A stretch of 54,053 nucleotides of DNA from Acidobacteriaceae bacterium. Its GTDB lineage: Bacteria > Acidobacteriota > Terriglobia > Terriglobales > Acidobacteriaceae. The notes beneath the pieces are model-generated. The model was not told where the DNA came from and ran no database searches. It worked only from the letters and a program-made list of their open reading frames with translations. How positions within the stretch are numbered: position 1 is the stretch's first letter; every line of letters starts with the position of its first letter. This document shows, in pieces, positions 40,593 through 47,886 of this stretch. The stretch is from NCBI GenBank assembly GCA_030041515.1, contig JASHNS010000009.1, positions 1 to 54,053 of the forward strand, read 5' to 3'. A program made the translations under genes and the position numbers.

Positions 40593-41819
40593 ATGGAATT
40601 AGCAGAAGCCTTTAAAGTGGCCCTGCAGTCGCTTTGGGCCAACAAGATGCGGACGGTGCTGACCATCGTGGGGATGGTAATCGGCATTGCTGCGCTGATC
40701 GCCGTCACCATGCTGGTGCAGGGCGCGAAGTGGTGGGTGATCAACAAAATCGCGACGAAGGGCTCCAACACGCTGACGGTGACGAAAATGCCGGCGGTGA
40801 TCACCACGCCGGAAGAATTCCTGAAGGTCAATAAGCGGAAAGACCTGACCTACGACGATTACCTGTACCTGCAGCGGACGTGCTCGCTTTGCGAGAGCAT
40901 CGGGGCTTCGTTGTCTTCGAGCGGGACCGTGATCAGCGGAAAGCAGTACAGCAACAACACCTCGATCAACGGCTGGACCACGGCCATGGAGCACATCAAC
41001 GATCTGAAGGTGGTCCAGGGCCGGCCGCTGACTTCGATGGACGACCAGCTGGGAACGCACGACATCATTGTGGGGTACGACATCGTCCAGAACCTGCTGC
41101 CCAATATGGATCCCATCGGGCAGGAGCTGCGGGTCGACGGCGAGGTGTATACCGTGGTGGGCGTGGGCGAGAAGGAAGGGGCGATTTTCGGCCAAAGCCA
41201 GGACAACTACGTGGATATGCCGCTGAGCACGTACCTGCACACGCACGGGGAACACCAGAGCGTGGAGATTTCCGCGGCGGCGAGCACGGCGCCGGGGGCC
41301 CTGGATAACGCTATCGATCAGGTGCGGGCGCTGCTGCGTGCGCGGCGGCACGATTTGCCGGGGACGGAAGACGACTTCAGCATCTCCACCAACGACACCT
41401 TCATCAGCATCTTCCACCAGATCACGTCGACCTTCGCGACGGTGATTCTGGGCATCGTCTCCATCTCTCTTGTGATTGCCGGCGTCGTGATCATGAACAT
41501 CATGCTGGTTTCGGTGACCGAGCGGACGCGCGAGATCGGCATCCGCAAGGCGCTGGGCGCGAAGCAGAACGATGTGATGATCCAGTTTCTGATCGAATCC
41601 GGCGTCATGGCCCTGATCGGAGGGTTCTTCGGTGTGCTGCTGGGCATCGGTATTGGGGAAGGGATAACCCAGTTGATTGGATTTCCGACCGCCATTCCTG
41701 CCTGGGTGGTGGTGCTGGCGCTGTTTGTGGCGGCCAGCGTAGGCATCTTCTTCGGCGTTTACCCGGCGCGTAAGGCGGCGATGCTCGATCCGATCGTGGC
41801 GCTGCGCGCGGAGCTATAG
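40593..41819 (+). CDS. MacB/FtsX-type ABC permease, first of a pair
   Basis: A 408-residue inner-membrane protein of the MacB fold. The N-terminal helix region is ALQSLWANKMRTVLTIVGMVIGIAALIAVTMLVQGAK. A large periplasmic domain (about residues 50-275) follows. The C-terminal FtsX-like part has three helices, including the standard VIMNIMLVSVTERTREIGIRKALGAKQNDVMIQFLIESGVMALIGGFFGVLLG and the closing GVYPARKAAMLDPIVALRAEL. A CxxC pair (C97, C100) in the periplasmic domain could form a disulfide. No ATPase gene is adjacent; the sister permease starts three bases later. Substrate unknown; related systems export peptides, lipoproteins or act as mechanotransmitters. Confidence 0.9.
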   Translation: MELAEAFKVALQSLWANKMRTVLTIVGMVIGIAALIAVTMLVQGAKWWVINKIATKGSNTLTVTKMPAVITTPEEFLKVNKRKDLTYDDYLYLQRTCSLCESIGASLSSSGTVISGKQYSNNTSINGWTTAMEHINDLKVVQGRPLTSMDDQLGTHDIIVGYDIVQNLLPNMDPIGQELRVDGEVYTVVGVGEKEGAIFGQSQDNYVDMPLSTYLHTHGEHQSVEISAAASTAPGALDNAIDQVRALLRARRHDLPGTEDDFSISTNDTFISIFHQITSTFATVILGIVSISLVIAGVVIMNIMLVSVTERTREIGIRKALGAKQNDVMIQFLIESGVMALIGGFFGVLLGIGIGEGITQLIGFPTAIPAWVVVLALFVAASVGIFFGVYPARKAAMLDPIVALRAEL

Positions 41820-41822
41820 GTC

Positions 41823-43076
41823 ATGGCAATCAGCGACTCTCGCGAATCCGTGCGCATGGCGATGTCGACATTGCGCACGAACAAAATGCGCTCGGGACTG
41901 ACGATTTTCGGTGTCGTTATCGGCGTCGCGACGGTCATCGCCATTTCCTCTCTCATCAATGGCGTGAACAACCGCGTGGCCGACATGGCACATTCCTTCG
42001 GGACGAACGTGCTTTGGATCTTTCGCTGGAATCCGATCGGCACGCGGCCCACGGCGGAGATGCTGGCACGGCCCTATCTGACGCTGGATGATGCCGCGGC
42101 GCTGGGAACGCTGCCGCATGTGGTGGCCGTGGACGCGGCGCGGCAGTTCGCAAACTGGCAGCTGAACGTTGGCCAGGTGGCGGTCCAGTACAAAAACAGG
42201 ATCGTGCAGAACACCATCCTTGAAGGCGCGATGCCTACGTTTGCCAGCGTCTCCAACGTGCAGTTTCTGGAGGGCCGCCCGTTCAGCGCGGACGAGGCGC
42301 TGCGCGGCGCCAACGTGGTCGATTTAGGGCACGACACGGCTGCGAAGCTGTTTCCTGACGAGGACCCCATCGGGAAGGACGTCATCATCGATGGCGATGT
42401 CTTCACCGTGATCGGCGTACTGGACAAGTTCAAACAGGCCTTCGGAAGCGGTCCGGACCCGCAGGATAACCGAGCGGAGTTCGCCCTGAGCACGTTCAAC
42501 AAAATCCATCCTGAGGTCACGGACACTGTCATTGCCGTCAAATATGACAACGAGAAGAACAAGGAACTGGTGACGGAAGAGGTGCGCGAGATGCTGCGGG
42601 CGCGCAGGCGGGTGCGCGTCGAGAAGGACGATAACTTCGCCATATTCAGTCCGGATTCCATTCTTAGCTTCTGGTCGCAGATCACCACCGGACTGGTGAT
42701 CTTCATGTTCGCCATTTCCTCGGTGGGCTTGCTGGTGGGCGGCATCGGAGTCATGAACATCATGCTGGTCTCGGTGACGGAGCGGACGCGCGAGATCGGC
42801 GTGCGCAAGGCCATCGGCGCCACCCGTCGCAATGTTCTGGTGCAGTTCACCGTGGAAGCCATTACTCTGTGCGCGCTGGGGGGCGTTATCGGCATTCTCC
42901 TCGGCGGAATCATCACCGCCATCGTGCGCTACGGCATCACGTTTCCAGCCAGCATGTCCATCTTCTGGACGGTGACTGGTTTTGTCGTTTCCTGCGCGAT
43001 CGGACTGGTGTTCGGTATCTATCCGGCATGGAAGGCAGCGAATCTGGATCCTATTGTGGCGCTTCGGTATGAGTAG
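41823..43076 (+). CDS. MacB/FtsX-type ABC permease, second of a pair
   Basis: A 417-residue homologue of the preceding gene, starting at ATG 41823 three bases after its stop. It shares the four-helix layout: STLRTNKMRSGLTIFGVVIGVATVIAISSLINGVNN at the N-terminus, a periplasmic domain, then GVMNIMLVSVTERTREIGVRKAIGATRRNVLVQFTVEAITLCALGGVIGILLGG and GIYPAWKAANLDPIVALRYE. It lacks the CxxC pair of its partner. The two probably form a heterodimer that needs a MacB/LolD-type ATPase from elsewhere. The pseudo-protease gene follows after 167 bases. Confidence 0.9.
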   Translation: MAISDSRESVRMAMSTLRTNKMRSGLTIFGVVIGVATVIAISSLINGVNNRVADMAHSFGTNVLWIFRWNPIGTRPTAEMLARPYLTLDDAAALGTLPHVVAVDAARQFANWQLNVGQVAVQYKNRIVQNTILEGAMPTFASVSNVQFLEGRPFSADEALRGANVVDLGHDTAAKLFPDEDPIGKDVIIDGDVFTVIGVLDKFKQAFGSGPDPQDNRAEFALSTFNKIHPEVTDTVIAVKYDNEKNKELVTEEVREMLRARRRVRVEKDDNFAIFSPDSILSFWSQITTGLVIFMFAISSVGLLVGGIGVMNIMLVSVTERTREIGVRKAIGATRRNVLVQFTVEAITLCALGGVIGILLGGIITAIVRYGITFPASMSIFWTVTGFVVSCAIGLVFGIYPAWKAANLDPIVALRYE

Positions 43077-43243
43077 AACCGCCGGCCGGGGAGACCGGGA
43101 GCCGGTGCGCCAGGATTCACGATTGTGGCGGACGAGCGGGGCCTCCGGAAACGCCCGCAGTGCCCGTGGGTTATCATAGAAGCACCCAGCGGCGTGGCAT
43201 TCCCGGAGACTGCCGAGGATCCACGTCCCGTGTCCTACACCTT

Positions 43244-44461
43244 ATGTCCAGAAGTTTCCATCGCGCTATCCTCGGTATTTCCGTCGCTGTCATTCTCGTG
43301 GTTTTCCTCGGCGCCTTTGGGCCGCCGGGAGTGAGCGCCAGCCAGAACGACGGCGCCTACCTCCAGATGAGTGTCTACGAGGATGTTCTGCACAAGATTC
43401 AGACCGACTACGTCACGACGCCGAACATCGGGCAGGTGACCAACGGCGCGCTGCACGGCCTGCTGGAGTCGCTCGATCCTGAATCCAGTTACCTGACCAA
43501 GGATGAATACGCCACCTACCTGGATCATCAGCACGAAGGCCAGGCGCAGGTGGGACTGGAAGTTTCCAAGCGCTATGGCTACGGCAGCGTGGTCACGGTC
43601 ATTCCGGGAAGCCCGGCTGCCAAGGCTAACATCGAAGATGGCGATCTGATCGAAGCCATCGGTGGCAAAACGACGCGCGTCATGTCCCTGGCGATGATCC
43701 GGCTGTTGTTGGAGGGCAAGCCGGGAACGACAGTAAGTTTCGACCTGGTGCGGCCGGGCGATCCGAAGCCGGATACGATCACGCTGACCCGCACCAACAT
43801 GGCGCCGCCAGCTTTGGACGTCCGGCAGTACAAGGATTCGAGCGTACTTTATCTGAAGCCGACCGTGCTGACTCAGGATCGGGTGGACGAAGTCCTTGCT
43901 CGCTTGCGCGCGATGCCTAAAGATGGCGACAAGAAGGTGATTCTGGACCTGCGCGATACCGCAGTGGGCAGCGAGGACCAGGGCATTCGCCTGGCGAACG
44001 CATTCCTGCAGTCGGGCACGATTGCGATGCTGGCCGGGCAGACGGTTCCGAGCAGGAGTTTCACCGCGGAAGCTTCCCAGTTCATCACGGCGGCGCCCCT
44101 GGTTGTTCTTGTCAATGGCGGGACGGCCGGAGCGGCGGAGATTGTGGCCGGGGCCGTTCTCGACAATAAGCGGGGCGAGGTCGTGGGCGAACGCACCTTT
44201 GGCGAAGGCGGCGAACTGAAGACCTTCGACCTGCCGGACGGTGCGGCACTGCTGCTCACCGTGGCGAAGTACGAGACCCCGGACGGGCAGAAGATCGAGG
44301 ACAAAGCGATCACGCCGAATGTTGAGGTGGCGGAGGAACAGGGACAGCTTTCGATTCCGGCTGCGAACGCGGTGAAAAATGCCCCGGCGGCTCAACCTCA
44401 GCAGCAACCCGACGAGCAGCTGAATAAGGCGCTGGATATTCTGAAGCAGAAGAGCGCGTAA
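43244..44461 (+). CDS. S41 peptidase homologue with PDZ domain, predicted catalytically inactive
   Basis: A 405-residue carboxyl-terminal-processing protease homologue. The N-terminus has a membrane/signal segment (RAILGISVAVILVVFLGAFG). The PDZ domain is about residues 105-190 (GYGSVVTVIPGSPAAKANIEDGDLIEAIGG...). The peptidase core is about 200-345. Aligned without gaps to the known Tsp/CtpA active site, the region T294-A-G-A-A-E299 replaces SASASE, so the nucleophile Ser is Gly296; the Lys of FGKG is Glu321 in FGEG. Only the Asp (D307) is kept. It is therefore probably a pseudoprotease that binds, but does not cut, protein tails. The C-terminus is Gln/Pro-rich. PBP1A follows 17 bases later. 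Confidence 0.9.
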   Translation: MSRSFHRAILGISVAVILVVFLGAFGPPGVSASQNDGAYLQMSVYEDVLHKIQTDYVTTPNIGQVTNGALHGLLESLDPESSYLTKDEYATYLDHQHEGQAQVGLEVSKRYGYGSVVTVIPGSPAAKANIEDGDLIEAIGGKTTRVMSLAMIRLLLEGKPGTTVSFDLVRPGDPKPDTITLTRTNMAPPALDVRQYKDSSVLYLKPTVLTQDRVDEVLARLRAMPKDGDKKVILDLRDTAVGSEDQGIRLANAFLQSGTIAMLAGQTVPSRSFTAEASQFITAAPLVVLVNGGTAGAAEIVAGAVLDNKRGEVVGERTFGEGGELKTFDLPDGAALLLTVAKYETPDGQKIEDKAITPNVEVAEEQGQLSIPAANAVKNAPAAQPQQQPDEQLNKALDILKQKSA

Positions 44462-44478
44462 GAGCTAAACTCGGGTAG

Positions 44479-46710
44479 TTGAATCTCATTACCCCATCAG
44501 CGCAGGACGAGGAGCCGGAACCAGGAGGCTTCCAGCCGGGAGCCGGACGGCGGAAGATCGCGGGCAGCGTGGCGCTGGTATTTCTGATTCTGCTGGCTGC
44601 AGCGGCCGGGGCGCTCACCGGCCTGATGCTGGTTTACTCCGTAGACCTGCCGCAGATCGATCAGCTCGAGCACTACCAGCCGATCGCCACCACGCAGCTC
44701 TATGACGTCCACGGCCGCATCATCGGTTCCTTCGCGCTCGAGCGCCGGACGCCGGTAGGTTACAGCGATTTTTCACCGCTGCTGCGGCAGGCGGTGATTT
44801 CCACCGAAGACCGGGATTTCGAAAGCCACTGGGGTGTGAATCTGTTCCGCGTGGCGGGCGCGGCGTGGCATGACGTTTTTTCCAAAGGCCGTGCGCAGGG
44901 GGCGTCGACGCTGACCATGCAACTGGCGCGCAATCTCTTCCTTACGAACGAACGCACTCTCTCGCGCAAGTTGCAGGAGGTGTTGCTCTCGCTGCAGATC
45001 GAGCATCGCTTCACGAAGCAGCAGATCTTTACGCTCTACGGCAACCAGATTTATCTGGGCAGCGGCGTATACGGGTTTGAGGCGGGCGCGCAGTATTACT
45101 TTTCAAAGCACGCCAGTGATCTGACGCTGACCGAAGCGGCGATGCTGGCTGGGCTGCCGAAAGGTCCAGTCGAATTTTCGCCTGTCCTGAATCCGGAACG
45201 TGCGCTGCGGCGGCGCAATCTTGTGATCGACGCGATGCTTGAGGACGGGAAAATTACTGTGACCCAGGCAGAGGCCGCGCGCTCGTCGCCGCTGGGGCTT
45301 CACATCGAGCCGCCACCGAACTCCGTCGCTCCGTGGTTCGTGGAAGAGGTGCGACAGGAACTGGACCGACGGTTTGGTTCCGAGGAGGTTCATTCAGGGG
45401 GCCTGCGCGTCTACACCACGATGGACCTGGACTATCAGGAGGCGGCGAATCAGGCTGTACTGGATGGTTTGGCTGCCTACGAGCGCAGCCGTGGCTGGCG
45501 CGGCCAACTCCTCAACGTGATTGCCGGCGGCTATTCCGTTGAGGACTTCAGGCATCCCGACTGGGTGCAGCCGCCCTCGCCGGGAGCGTACATCCACGCG
45601 GTCGTCACCGGCGTGCTGCCCTGGCAGGTAACCGCGCGCATCGGAGAACGAACGTTGATTCTGACGGCTGCGGACTGGGCGTGGACCGGATATTCCACGG
45701 CAGATAAATTTCTGCATGTCGGCGACATCATCTATGTGCAGATCACCGCAGGGGATAACGGCTCCGGTGGACTTTTGCGCGGCACGCTGGAAGAAGATAC
45801 CGGCGCGCAGGGCGCGCTGCTGGCCATGGATAACACCAGCGGCGATGTGCTGGCTCTGGTGGGAGGGCGGGACTTCGACCTTTCTCAATTCGATCGCGCC
45901 ACTCAGGCGCAACGGCAGACCGGTTCGTCGTTCAAGCCATACGTCTACACGGCGGCCGTCGAGGACGGACTGACTCCTGAGGACACGATTGTTGATCACC
46001 CCGTGTCCTTTGGCGCCTACGTGCCGCACAACTACGACGGACGGTTTCTGGGCCGCATTTCTCTGCTGAAGGCCTTTGCGGATTCGCGCAATATTCCCGC
46101 GCTGGAACTGGCGCAGCGCGTCGGGATTGAGAACGTGATCCGTACGGCGCGCCGCTTCGGAATTACTACCGATATTCCGCCCTACCTGCCCATCGCGCTC
46201 GGCTCGGCGGACGTCACTCTCGAGCAACAGGTGGCGGCGTACTCCGTGTTTCCCAACGATGGCCTGCGCGTAGCTCCTCATCTCATCCGCCGCGTGATCG
46301 CCGCCGACGGCACGCCGCTCTTCGAAGAGACGCCGGAAGTGAAGGAGGCGATCAGCCAGAAGACGGCGCGGACGATGATGATCTTTTTGCGCAGCGTAGC
46401 GACCGAGGGAACAGCAGGGTCGCTGGCGGCGCTGCACTATCCCCTGGGCGGCAAGACAGGGACGACGAATGACTTTACCGACGCCTGGTTCGTAGGCTTC
46501 TCGCCTTCGGTCAGCTGCGGCGTGTGGGTGGGCTACGACAGCCGCGAATCACTGGGCGATAAAGAGACTGGCGCGCGCGCCGCGCTGCCCATCTGGACCG
46601 ACTTTATGAAGACGGTGATCACGGCATCGCCCAACGAAGCGTTTCCGGGCACGCCCTCGACACCCTCGGACGCGGCGAAACAGACGGCGAAGCTGACGGA
46701 ATTTCATTAA
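44479..46710 (+). CDS. Penicillin-binding protein 1A (bifunctional transglycosylase/transpeptidase)
   Basis: A 743-residue class A PBP building and cross-linking peptidoglycan in the periplasm. One membrane anchor (VALVFLILLAAAAGALTGLMLVYS) is followed by a GT51 domain (about residues 65-245) with AVISTEDRDFESHWGVN, QGASTLTMQLARNLFL and RKLQEVLLSLQIEHRFTKQQI. A linker insertion of about 100 residues precedes the transpeptidase domain, whose motifs are SSFK (in QTGSSFKPYVY), SRN (in ADSRNIPAL) and KTG (in GGKTGTTNDFTDAWFVG). The TTG at 44479 is the only usable start, as no ATG or GTG precedes the membrane anchor; ribosome binding site support is weak. It is 17 bases after the pseudo-protease gene, suggesting co-expression. 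Confidence 0.94.
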   Translation: MNLITPSAQDEEPEPGGFQPGAGRRKIAGSVALVFLILLAAAAGALTGLMLVYSVDLPQIDQLEHYQPIATTQLYDVHGRIIGSFALERRTPVGYSDFSPLLRQAVISTEDRDFESHWGVNLFRVAGAAWHDVFSKGRAQGASTLTMQLARNLFLTNERTLSRKLQEVLLSLQIEHRFTKQQIFTLYGNQIYLGSGVYGFEAGAQYYFSKHASDLTLTEAAMLAGLPKGPVEFSPVLNPERALRRRNLVIDAMLEDGKITVTQAEAARSSPLGLHIEPPPNSVAPWFVEEVRQELDRRFGSEEVHSGGLRVYTTMDLDYQEAANQAVLDGLAAYERSRGWRGQLLNVIAGGYSVEDFRHPDWVQPPSPGAYIHAVVTGVLPWQVTARIGERTLILTAADWAWTGYSTADKFLHVGDIIYVQITAGDNGSGGLLRGTLEEDTGAQGALLAMDNTSGDVLALVGGRDFDLSQFDRATQAQRQTGSSFKPYVYTAAVEDGLTPEDTIVDHPVSFGAYVPHNYDGRFLGRISLLKAFADSRNIPALELAQRVGIENVIRTARRFGITTDIPPYLPIALGSADVTLEQQVAAYSVFPNDGLRVAPHLIRRVIAADGTPLFEETPEVKEAISQKTARTMMIFLRSVATEGTAGSLAALHYPLGGKTGTTNDFTDAWFVGFSPSVSCGVWVGYDSRESLGDKETGARAALPIWTDFMKTVITASPNEAFPGTPSTPSDAAKQTAKLTEFH

Positions 46711-46785: not shown

Positions 46786-47886
46786 ATGCTGCATTTCAAG
46801 TGGATCCGTCCCACGGCCGCTCTGGTCTGCGCGGCTTTTGCTCTCCCTTGCCTGGCGCAAGCTCCACAGGCGCTCTTCTACATGACCGAAACGCCGGATT
46901 CGGTGCGAGATTTTTTGGCGCACGCGTCGCAGGTGGATCTGCTGGTGCCGACCTGGTACTCCGTCGACGAGAGTGGACTCGTCTCCGGGGAACCCGATCC
47001 TCTGGTGATGGCCACGGCGAAGGCCGCGCATGTGCCTGTGGAGCCGATCCTCTCGAACCATGCGGACAACCCAGCCATTTTCCACGCGCTCCTCGGGAAT
47101 CCGGAAGGGCAGAGGCAGATGATCGCCGCTATGCTGCGCGAAGCTGGCGCTTACGGCTACAAGGGGTTCCAGTTCGATTTTGAGAACGTGGCCTGGACCG
47201 ATCGCGATGCGCTGAGCGCCCTGGTGGCTCGCGCCGGCGCCGCATTGCATGCCGCGGGCTTTCAGCTCTCCATCGCCGTCGTACCCGCCGCGCCCGGCTA
47301 TCCGGGCGCGACGGAATTCTCAAGCTGGAATTACGCCTATTGGCAGGGTGCTTACGATCTCGGGTCATTGGCTAAATCCACCGATCTGATTTGCCTGATG
47401 ACCTACGACGAGAACACGGCGTACACCCCGCCTGGGCCGGTGGCCGGCTGGGTGTGGGTAGAGAAGAATCTCGCCTACGCGCTCCAGTCGGTGCCCAAAG
47501 CAAAACTCTCGCTGGGGATCCCGCTTTATGGGCGACACTGGTTTGCAGGCGCGCCGCGGCCGAACCCGGCTACTGCCGCATTGCCCTGGCATCCAGGCGG
47601 ATCGCAGAACGACCTGCCCAACTCCACGGCCGATTACATCAATGGCGAAGACGCGCTCCTGTTGGCCAAAACCTGGGGCGCGACCATCCAGTGGGACCCG
47701 GTGGATCGCAGCTCCTGGTTCTGGTTTTATCGCGATAACGTACGCGAGTGGGTCTTCTTCACGACGGAGCGGAGCTTTGCTGCTCGTTACGATCTGGTGA
47801 AGCAGCGCGGCCTTGAAGGCTTCTGCTCGTGGGTGCTGGGCAGCGAAGATCAGTCAGTCTGGAAGGCGCTGCCCACGCACCCGTAA
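46786..47886 (+). CDS. Secreted GH18-type glycoside hydrolase (spore-coat/YaaH-like fold)
   Basis: A 366-residue exported enzyme with signal peptide MLHFKWIRPTAALVCAAFALPCLA. The GH18 catalytic strand is GYKGFQFDFENV, with catalytic acid E133 in D131-F-E133. LICLMTYDENTAY carries the second conserved active-site motif, and LSLGIPLYGRHW and GLEGFCSWVLGSED complete the barrel. YaaH-like members cleave N-acetylglucosamine bonds in peptidoglycan or chitin. It lies 75 bases after PBP1A, so cell-wall remodelling is a reasonable role. No LysM or other binding domain is present. Confidence 0.87.
   Translation: MLHFKWIRPTAALVCAAFALPCLAQAPQALFYMTETPDSVRDFLAHASQVDLLVPTWYSVDESGLVSGEPDPLVMATAKAAHVPVEPILSNHADNPAIFHALLGNPEGQRQMIAAMLREAGAYGYKGFQFDFENVAWTDRDALSALVARAGAALHAAGFQLSIAVVPAAPGYPGATEFSSWNYAYWQGAYDLGSLAKSTDLICLMTYDENTAYTPPGPVAGWVWVEKNLAYALQSVPKAKLSLGIPLYGRHWFAGAPRPNPATAALPWHPGGSQNDLPNSTADYINGEDALLLAKTWGATIQWDPVDRSSWFWFYRDNVREWVFFTTERSFAARYDLVKQRGLEGFCSWVLGSEDQSVWKALPTHP

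Follow-up and report, generated by a model that had tools for sequence, protein, structure and literature searches.

In several Gram-negative bacteria, growth of the cell wall is controlled by C-terminal processing proteases through the destruction of hydrolases, and the CtpA of the Pseudomonas envC-ctpA-sddA operon destroys cell-wall hydrolases. For class A penicillin-binding proteins, known cofactors include the Lpo lipoproteins and CpoB. Non-proteolytic proteins of the S41 fold and pseudoproteases are both known kinds: IRBP (RBP3), an S41-fold non-protease, consists of animal modules that bind retinoids without proteolysis, has no PDZ domain and has no link to peptidoglycan.

The operon of P. 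aeruginosa is envC-ctpA-PA5135, and SddA of E. coli, a peptidoglycan deacetylase (PMC12440217), is the orthologue of PA5135 (PMC12569750); all PMC citations in this paper refer to excerpts of the articles. In P. aeruginosa CtpA (PaCtpA; PDB 7rpq and 8sxe), the catalytic Ser302 and Lys327 lie 25 residues apart (PMC11021448), as do Ser452 and Lys477 of Prc (PMC6686036). Activity of PaCtpA in vivo is abolished by S302A and likewise by K327A, and is lowered by H84A (PMC11021448). The CtpA of H. pylori (HpCtpA; 9jr1 and 9ku0) is catalytically competent and is described as a self-contained hexamer (PMC12749690). Prc/Tsp of E. coli shares the S41 core and PDZ domain and, together with the adaptor NlpI, targets peptidoglycan enzymes (PMC8764530, PMC12749690), but is much larger, monomeric and active (PMC8764530). 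The iRhoms and CspC/CspA of Clostridioides difficile, described in excerpts of the literature as inactive proteases whose folds serve binding or regulation, belong to other protease families. Searches of open-licence PMC papers returned no title or abstract opening that describes a bacterial S41 pseudoprotease.

An altered active site

We analysed a stretch of acidobacterial DNA of 54,053 nucleotides, referred to here as the window. It carries a CtpA-like gene with the following features:

43244 to 44461, plus strand: pseudo-CtpA gene (S41 fold, PDZ domain, no Ser-Lys), 405 amino acids plus stop, ATG at 43244
43481 to 43483, plus strand: codon of Glu80, opposite His84 of PaCtpA; His is found in 0 of 134 family members and in 13 of 13 active paralogues
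43946 to 43972, plus strand: loop DLRDTAVGS, residues 235-243, which reads DLRxNPGG in active proteins; Val replaces the first Gly of the GG pair
44129 to 44131, plus strand: Gly296 replacing the catalytic Ser, from alignment with CtpA proteins
44162 to 44164, plus strand: codon of Asp307
44204 to 44206, plus strand: Glu321 replacing the catalytic Lys, from alignment with CtpA proteins

The protein belongs to the S41 fold family, with a Pfam PF03572 match of 113.2 bits (cut-off 24) and a fold match of Z 37.8. PDZ_6 was also matched, and the NCBIfam model prc scored 194 bits, below its cut-off of 218.6. Residues 294-299 read TAGAAE and residues 319-322 read FGEG, and the Ser of SxSxxE and the Lys of FGKG, which mark an active S41 peptidase, are thus Gly296 and Glu321. 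The preliminary description of this DNA had read the same changes, from SASASE to TAGAAE and from FGKG to FGEG, with a spacing that left no gap. Both the sequence and the CtpA alignments confirmed them: positions 296, 307 and 321 are spaced 11 and 14 residues apart, and in a gap-free alignment to PaCtpA (7rpq) and HpCtpA (9jr1) the Gly lines up with the catalytic Ser and the Glu with the catalytic Lys. In the preliminary description, Asp307 was matched by this spacing to a putative Asp441 of E. coli Tsp.

Spread of the altered residues in Acidobacteriota

Orthologues of the window protein were found in 73 of 81 genomes of relatives (two of them as fragments) and were absent in 8. In an even draw of 149 Acidobacteriota genomes they were present in at least 77, among the matches listed; both figures were counted by reading. 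With the two draws merged, which have 5 genomes in common, an orthologue is present in at least 145 of 225 genomes. A search over all species, based on a small number of peptide patterns from the window protein, returned two close relatives only.

For residue counts, 134 orthologues from Acidobacteriota were aligned. Left out were duplicates of genomes already included (L002, L006, L036, L037, L120, L122, L123 and L130), the active paralogues L001 and L179, the 92-residue fragment par_L003 and the doubtful G148. Orthologues were also detected outside the alignment in G020, G058, G061, G198, G108, G127, G179, G133, G100, G195 and G091, of which G133 and G100 were fetched afterwards (as L205 and L206) and stand outside the counts. 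At the Ser site the 134 members carry Gly (121), Ser (8), Asn (2), Gln (2) or Lys (1). The Lys site is occupied by Glu (37), Ala (17), Val (13), Arg (13), Asp (12), Leu (8), Ile (7), Ser (6), Gln (5), Lys (5) and others. None of the 134 has the assisting His of the CtpA group (His84 in PaCtpA, His85 in HpCtpA), and His, Ser and Lys are all present in 13 of 13 aligned active paralogues. On the other hand, D235, R237, E299 and G320 are identical in all 134 members and in the 12 active paralogues compared, and the scaffold of the active site has therefore been kept.

The preliminary description had suggested a check of whether G and E are conserved as a clade. This held for the Gly (121 of 134) and failed for the Glu (37 of 134), and Glu321 as the seat of a conserved new function was rejected, since the site drifts among many residues. 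The claim that the protein cannot cleave is strongly supported at the level of sequence, with nucleophile, base and CtpA His all lost, and in a clade far wider than had been proposed; the window protein is very probably catalytically inactive. We also asked whether the oxyanion GG pair marks activity, and the outcome was mixed: GG is present in 24 of 134 members, 22 of them without Ser and Lys.

A sequencing error or recent local mutation can be set aside, because the same G and E stand in the separate relatives L007 (85% identical) and L008 (84%), and Gly occupies the Ser site in 121 of 134. Sister species with Ser and Lys intact had been named as the sign of such an error; in the genus, L015 alone among the 11 other genomes has Ser, with Glu in the place of Lys, and across the family both residues are found in 4 of 134. 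The Ser at residue 296 of L015 may be a lone return, or a retention without the base.

The four members with both residues are L074, L075, L164 and L170, and on their account some of the family may cut. They have no CtpA His, and carry Gly or Glu in place of the Asp. Ser and Lys co-occur above expectation (both in 4, Ser only in 4, Lys only in 1, neither in 125; Fisher p 2.7e-5), a result that rests on two lineages.

Phylogeny and selection

Trees were built without the active-site columns. A single branch separates the 134 members from 13 active paralogues (SH-aLRT 100), and with 59 of the 134 members the family is split from 8 active paralogues, PaCtpA and HpCtpA with bootstrap/SH-aLRT of 100/100. 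The members that keep Ser and Lys are nested inside the family in two lineages. On the tree of 59 members, one ancestral catalytic loss with two regains requires 3 changes, and loss without regain requires 5; a single ancestral loss with regains and five losses without regain thus fit almost equally. A profile of the family scores PaCtpA at 302 bits, above the 18 acidobacterial active paralogues at 228-256 bits.

The ratio dN/dS was 0.07-0.15 in ten pairs within the genus, at dS of 0.3 to 1.5. These values of dN/dS led us to reject a pseudogene. The family shows the marks of a pseudoprotease: the predicted fold is kept, the catalytic residues are gone and the gene is maintained by selection.

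Retained structural parts

An AlphaFold2 model of the window protein, made from 45 sequences, predicts an intact fold with pLDDT 87 and pTM 0.81, and with low confidence at residues 28-36 and 365-386. The top structural match by Z was HpCtpA (9ku0_D; Z 37.8, rmsd 2.7 over 341), which was also the best single-sequence match in the PDB set, and PaCtpA was matched with Z 36.2 and rmsd 3.5 over 347 (8sxe_B). The protein follows the order of the CtpA group, with a dimerization helix, PDZ domain, S41 core and C-terminal helix:

43250 to 43318, plus strand: N-terminal hydrophobic helix, residues 3-25, a putative membrane helix read by eye
43352 to 43423, plus strand: helix of residues about 37-60, corresponding to the N-terminal dimerization and adaptor-binding region of PaCtpA (PMC11021448, PMC8764530)
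43535 to 43801, plus strand: PDZ domain, residues about 98-186, from Pfam and the fold match
44411 to 44458, plus strand: C-terminal helix DEQLNKALDILKQKSA, corresponding to the C-terminal dimerization helix of PaCtpA (PMC8764530)

In the N-terminal helix, Ser13 is present in 129 and Gly23 in 128 of 134 members. Conservation to this degree seems more than an ordinary signal peptide requires, and we infer that the helix is a retained anchor with a contact face. In the dimerization helix, positions 42 (L/M/I), 45 (Y/F), V48, L49, Y56 and V57 are mostly kept, with L/M/I42 in 131, Y/F45 in 123 and L49 in 106 of 134, and the protein may well form dimers as PaCtpA does. We matched these three to hydrophobic positions of PaCtpA, where they contact the adaptor LbcA (PMC11021448). 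The C-terminal helix has D390 in 114 and L393 and A396 in 122 of 134.

Compared with PaCtpA, the pseudo-CtpA thus shares the domain order, the fold and both the dimerization and C-terminal helices. PaCtpA differs in its active Ser302-Lys327 pair, in His84 and in a longer C-terminal linker with the stretch FKEADLQGHL; Ser is lacking in 126, Lys in 129 and His in 134 of 134 family members, and the stretch is found in 0 of 104 tails. Loss of the trans-inserting C-terminal loop (around Glu382 of HpCtpA and Glu385 of PaCtpA) was considered as a diagnostic mark. A regular expression for it matched none of the 104 placeable tails of the 134 members and none of 12 active paralogues, and the mark was dropped, since the acidobacterial active paralogues are without the stretch too.

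Genomic context across the phylum

Profiles of neighbouring genes were made locally from neighbour clusters, and matches were then verified with Pfam. A neighbour was counted up to 1200 bp away for GT51, up to 600 bp for EnvC or the deacetylase, and, for MltG, up to 3000 bp on the other strand or 600 bp on the same strand. We scanned 132 loci, 25 of them with flanks of only 1.5 kb; the window itself and L087, which gave no S41 match, were excluded. GT51 lies downstream in 46 loci, 45 of them in the taxonomic family of the window (Acidobacteriaceae); the other, L070, has no transpeptidase match and is not PBP1A. An EnvC-like M23 gene lies upstream in 22 of 132 and an SddA-type deacetylase (PF04748) downstream in 14, and MltG is found upstream in 26, RuvX in 32 and ThrS downstream in 17. 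At least one of the four peptidoglycan genes (GT51, EnvC-like, SddA-type, MltG) lies within the limits at 95 of 132 loci. None of the scanned neighbours was found at 31 loci, and only RuvX or ThrS at 6 more. As a control, the loci of active paralogues have these genes inside the limits in 0 of 18 cases; one of them, L196, has an EnvC-like match 2,980 bp upstream, outside the limit.

Pfam confirmed 22 of 23 EnvC-like, 14 of 14 SddA-type, 26 of 26 MltG and 44 of 46 GT51 matches. The EnvC match at L140 was false, as it overlaps MltG on the other strand, and was taken out, leaving the figure of 95 of 132 unchanged. The GT51 entries without a Pfam match are L048, a 99-residue piece at a contig end, and probably L091, where the gene is split.

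This older gene order, with EnvC, SddA and MltG, was missing from the preliminary description. The contexts are tied together by mixed loci: EnvC-S41-SddA (6), MltG/RuvX-EnvC-S41-ThrS (6), S41-SddA with PBP1A upstream (L064) and MltG/RuvX-S41-SddA (L066). The EnvC-like and SddA-type genes occur together at 6 of 132 loci, and flanks of this kind suggest that the pseudoprotease there occupies the slot that the active CtpA has in Pseudomonas; the envC-ctpA-sddA order itself is not present in the window. Outside the counts, L206 is placed between EnvC-like and SddA-type matches. Both L164 and L170 are also flanked by EnvC-like and SddA-type genes. For 5 of 5 EnvC-like neighbours scanned, EnvC was the best NCBIfam model, always under its cut-off. 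The mark of active M23 enzymes is HxH, and most of the EnvC-like neighbours inspected end instead in LYFExR or similar. No FtsEX was recognised by eye beside EnvC in the upstream frames of 11 loci. A block of RuvX, MltG (mostly on the opposite strand), sometimes EnvC, pseudo-CtpA, sometimes HU, and ThrS recurs in several lineages of the phylum (L131, L150, L152, L153, L156, L159, L166, L167, L169, L172 and others).

PBP1A and MacB neighbours in the lineage of the window

Within the window, the pseudo-CtpA gene is flanked on both sides by genes of the same strand:

40593 to 43076, plus strand: two MacB-like permeases, upstream of pseudo-CtpA
44479 to 46710, plus strand: class A penicillin-binding protein of the PBP1A family (TIGR02074, 587 bits, above cut-off)

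The stop at 44461 is separated from the TTG at 44479 by 17 bp, the TTG start being the choice of the open reading frame tool. A promoter and terminator scan of 42900-44700 gave one match each, about the number expected by chance, and neither falls in the gap between pseudo-CtpA and PBP1A. In the Acidobacteriaceae, PBP1A lies no more than 1.2 kb downstream at 45 of 50 loci, and no more than 215 bp downstream at 40 of these; the exceptions are L046, L097, L099, L102 and L103. The association with PBP1A proposed in the preliminary description is thus supported by conserved gene order. Its other suggestion, a link to the MacB-like permeases, found no support: the pair lies upstream at all 11 other genus loci and at 0 of 40 other loci of the taxonomic family, where the flanks span just 1.5 kb at 9 of the 40 and are shorter still at L042 and L044. 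As neighbours only within the genus, the MacB-like permeases probably lie outside the system. Inspection by eye revealed no ABC ATPase in the frames beside the MacB pair, whose upstream gene is phosphomannose isomerase-like, and the pair is doubled in tandem in the genus relatives L082, L083, L085 and L091. Downstream of PBP1A, a GH18-family protein is encoded at 46786-47886 of the window, as in the nearest relatives L078 and L079.

The classic PDZ ligand is a hydrophobic tail, and the PBP1A tail in the genus of the window is not of this type. Part of the taxonomic family (L038-L040, L042-L045, L050, L096, L098, L100 and L106) has a PBP1A ending like VDTPDxxPGDGEAH after a variable spacer; the genus of the window has another ending. 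The PBP1A tail as PDZ ligand, conserved in part of the taxonomic family and not in this genus, remains a lead.

The genome of the window (G000) has five S41 matches including pseudo-CtpA, one of which (L001) is an active CtpA by its motifs (TASAAE...FGKG). It also has two M23 matches, with EnvC identity established for neither, three GT51 genes and one MltG on another contig, and the SddA domain (PF04748) gave no match in it. With no SddA domain and no M23 gene established as EnvC, the ancestral partners may be gone from this genome, and its EnvC-SddA pathway may be absent or differ from the one known elsewhere. We infer that pseudo-CtpA persisted after its former neighbours had gone and became adjacent to PBP1A.

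Alternative explanations

The protein might instead be a regulatory subunit of the active CtpA of the same cell, with mixed dimers or hexamers that tune activity or capture substrates. In the PaCtpA-LbcA complex there is one active subunit per dimer, and a dead partner therefore fits the architecture (PMC11021448); the dimerization helix is retained in pseudo-CtpA, and Ser and Lys are kept in all 12 aligned paralogues from 11 genomes (among them G012, which has no family member). However, the active paralogues belong to another subfamily, with frames of 540-690 residues and another C-terminus, they differ at positions of the dimerization helix (Tyr for Leu49 and Ala for Val57), and a second S41 match was found at only 1 of 132 loci (L154), so that we regard this as unlikely. 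Continued proteolysis by a rearranged active site is less likely still. Thr or Ser at 294, Glu299, Arg237 and Gly320 are invariant or nearly so, and Ser and Lys are kept in 4 of 134 members, but the same residues are found in the active paralogues and thus look like scaffold rather than new catalytic residues; moreover, at least 12 different residues occur at the Lys site, and none of the 134 has the assisting His.

We give equally little credence to a small hydrophobic or cell-wall ligand held in the S41 groove, as in IRBP/RBP3. The IRBP modules are related by fold (7jti_D; Z 19.2, rmsd 5.0 over 248), but this match is far weaker than that to CtpA, and pseudo-CtpA has kept its PDZ domain. An adaptor for the upstream MacB-like permeases is slightly less probable again: the pair shares its strand with pseudo-CtpA and is separated from it by 167 bp in the window and by about 70-710 bp in the other loci of the genus, yet this arrangement, seen in 11 of 11 of those loci and in 0 of 40 elsewhere in the taxonomic family, is much younger than the pseudo-CtpA gene. 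Decay into a pseudogene, or an assembly error, would fit the loss of catalytic residues if that loss stood by itself. It is refuted for practical purposes by the presence of the gene in at least 145 of 225 genomes, by dN/dS of 0.07-0.15 and by the same residues in separate genomes.

Proposed function

We favour the explanation, which on balance we consider probable, that this protein is an ancient S41 pseudoprotease that binds peptidoglycan enzymes without cutting them and so regulates or positions them, now with PBP1A. A role in peptidoglycan metabolism, taken more broadly, is likely. A specific binding role for PBP1A, suggested by gene context, is a tentative proposal, and it should be borne in mind that neighbouring genes need not interact. 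The protein would be periplasmic and of the CtpA type (S41), with its N-terminal helix as an anchor in the cytoplasmic membrane. Its Ser-Lys-His set would have been lost long ago in Acidobacteriota, and the PDZ domain, the peptide cradle and the dimerization helices would have been kept. The PDZ domain and groove may still take up protein tails or an adaptor, so that peptidoglycan enzymes are held and positioned and not cut. In origin it may have been the CtpA of an envC-ctpA-sddA operon that turned into a non-cutting regulator. In the lineage of the window, where it travels with PBP1A, this enzyme is its candidate client, and pseudo-CtpA would most likely tether or tune the synthesis that PBP1A carries out. 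More speculatively, a non-cutting tail reader that couples EnvC, SddA and MltG, and later PBP1A, could be a third type of class A PBP cofactor, with the Ser13/Gly23 face of the helix contacting a partner.

In conclusion, much of the phylum has kept this protein and its cell-wall neighbours and discarded catalysis, which suggests that binding alone is useful. The tail-reading or scaffold roles of these proteases would thereby be separated from the cutting role. The annotation "S41 family peptidase" may assign a large set of genes to the wrong kind of protein. For the Acidobacteriota, whose cell-wall biology is in our judgement little studied, pseudo-CtpA provides a concrete candidate regulator of PBP1A.
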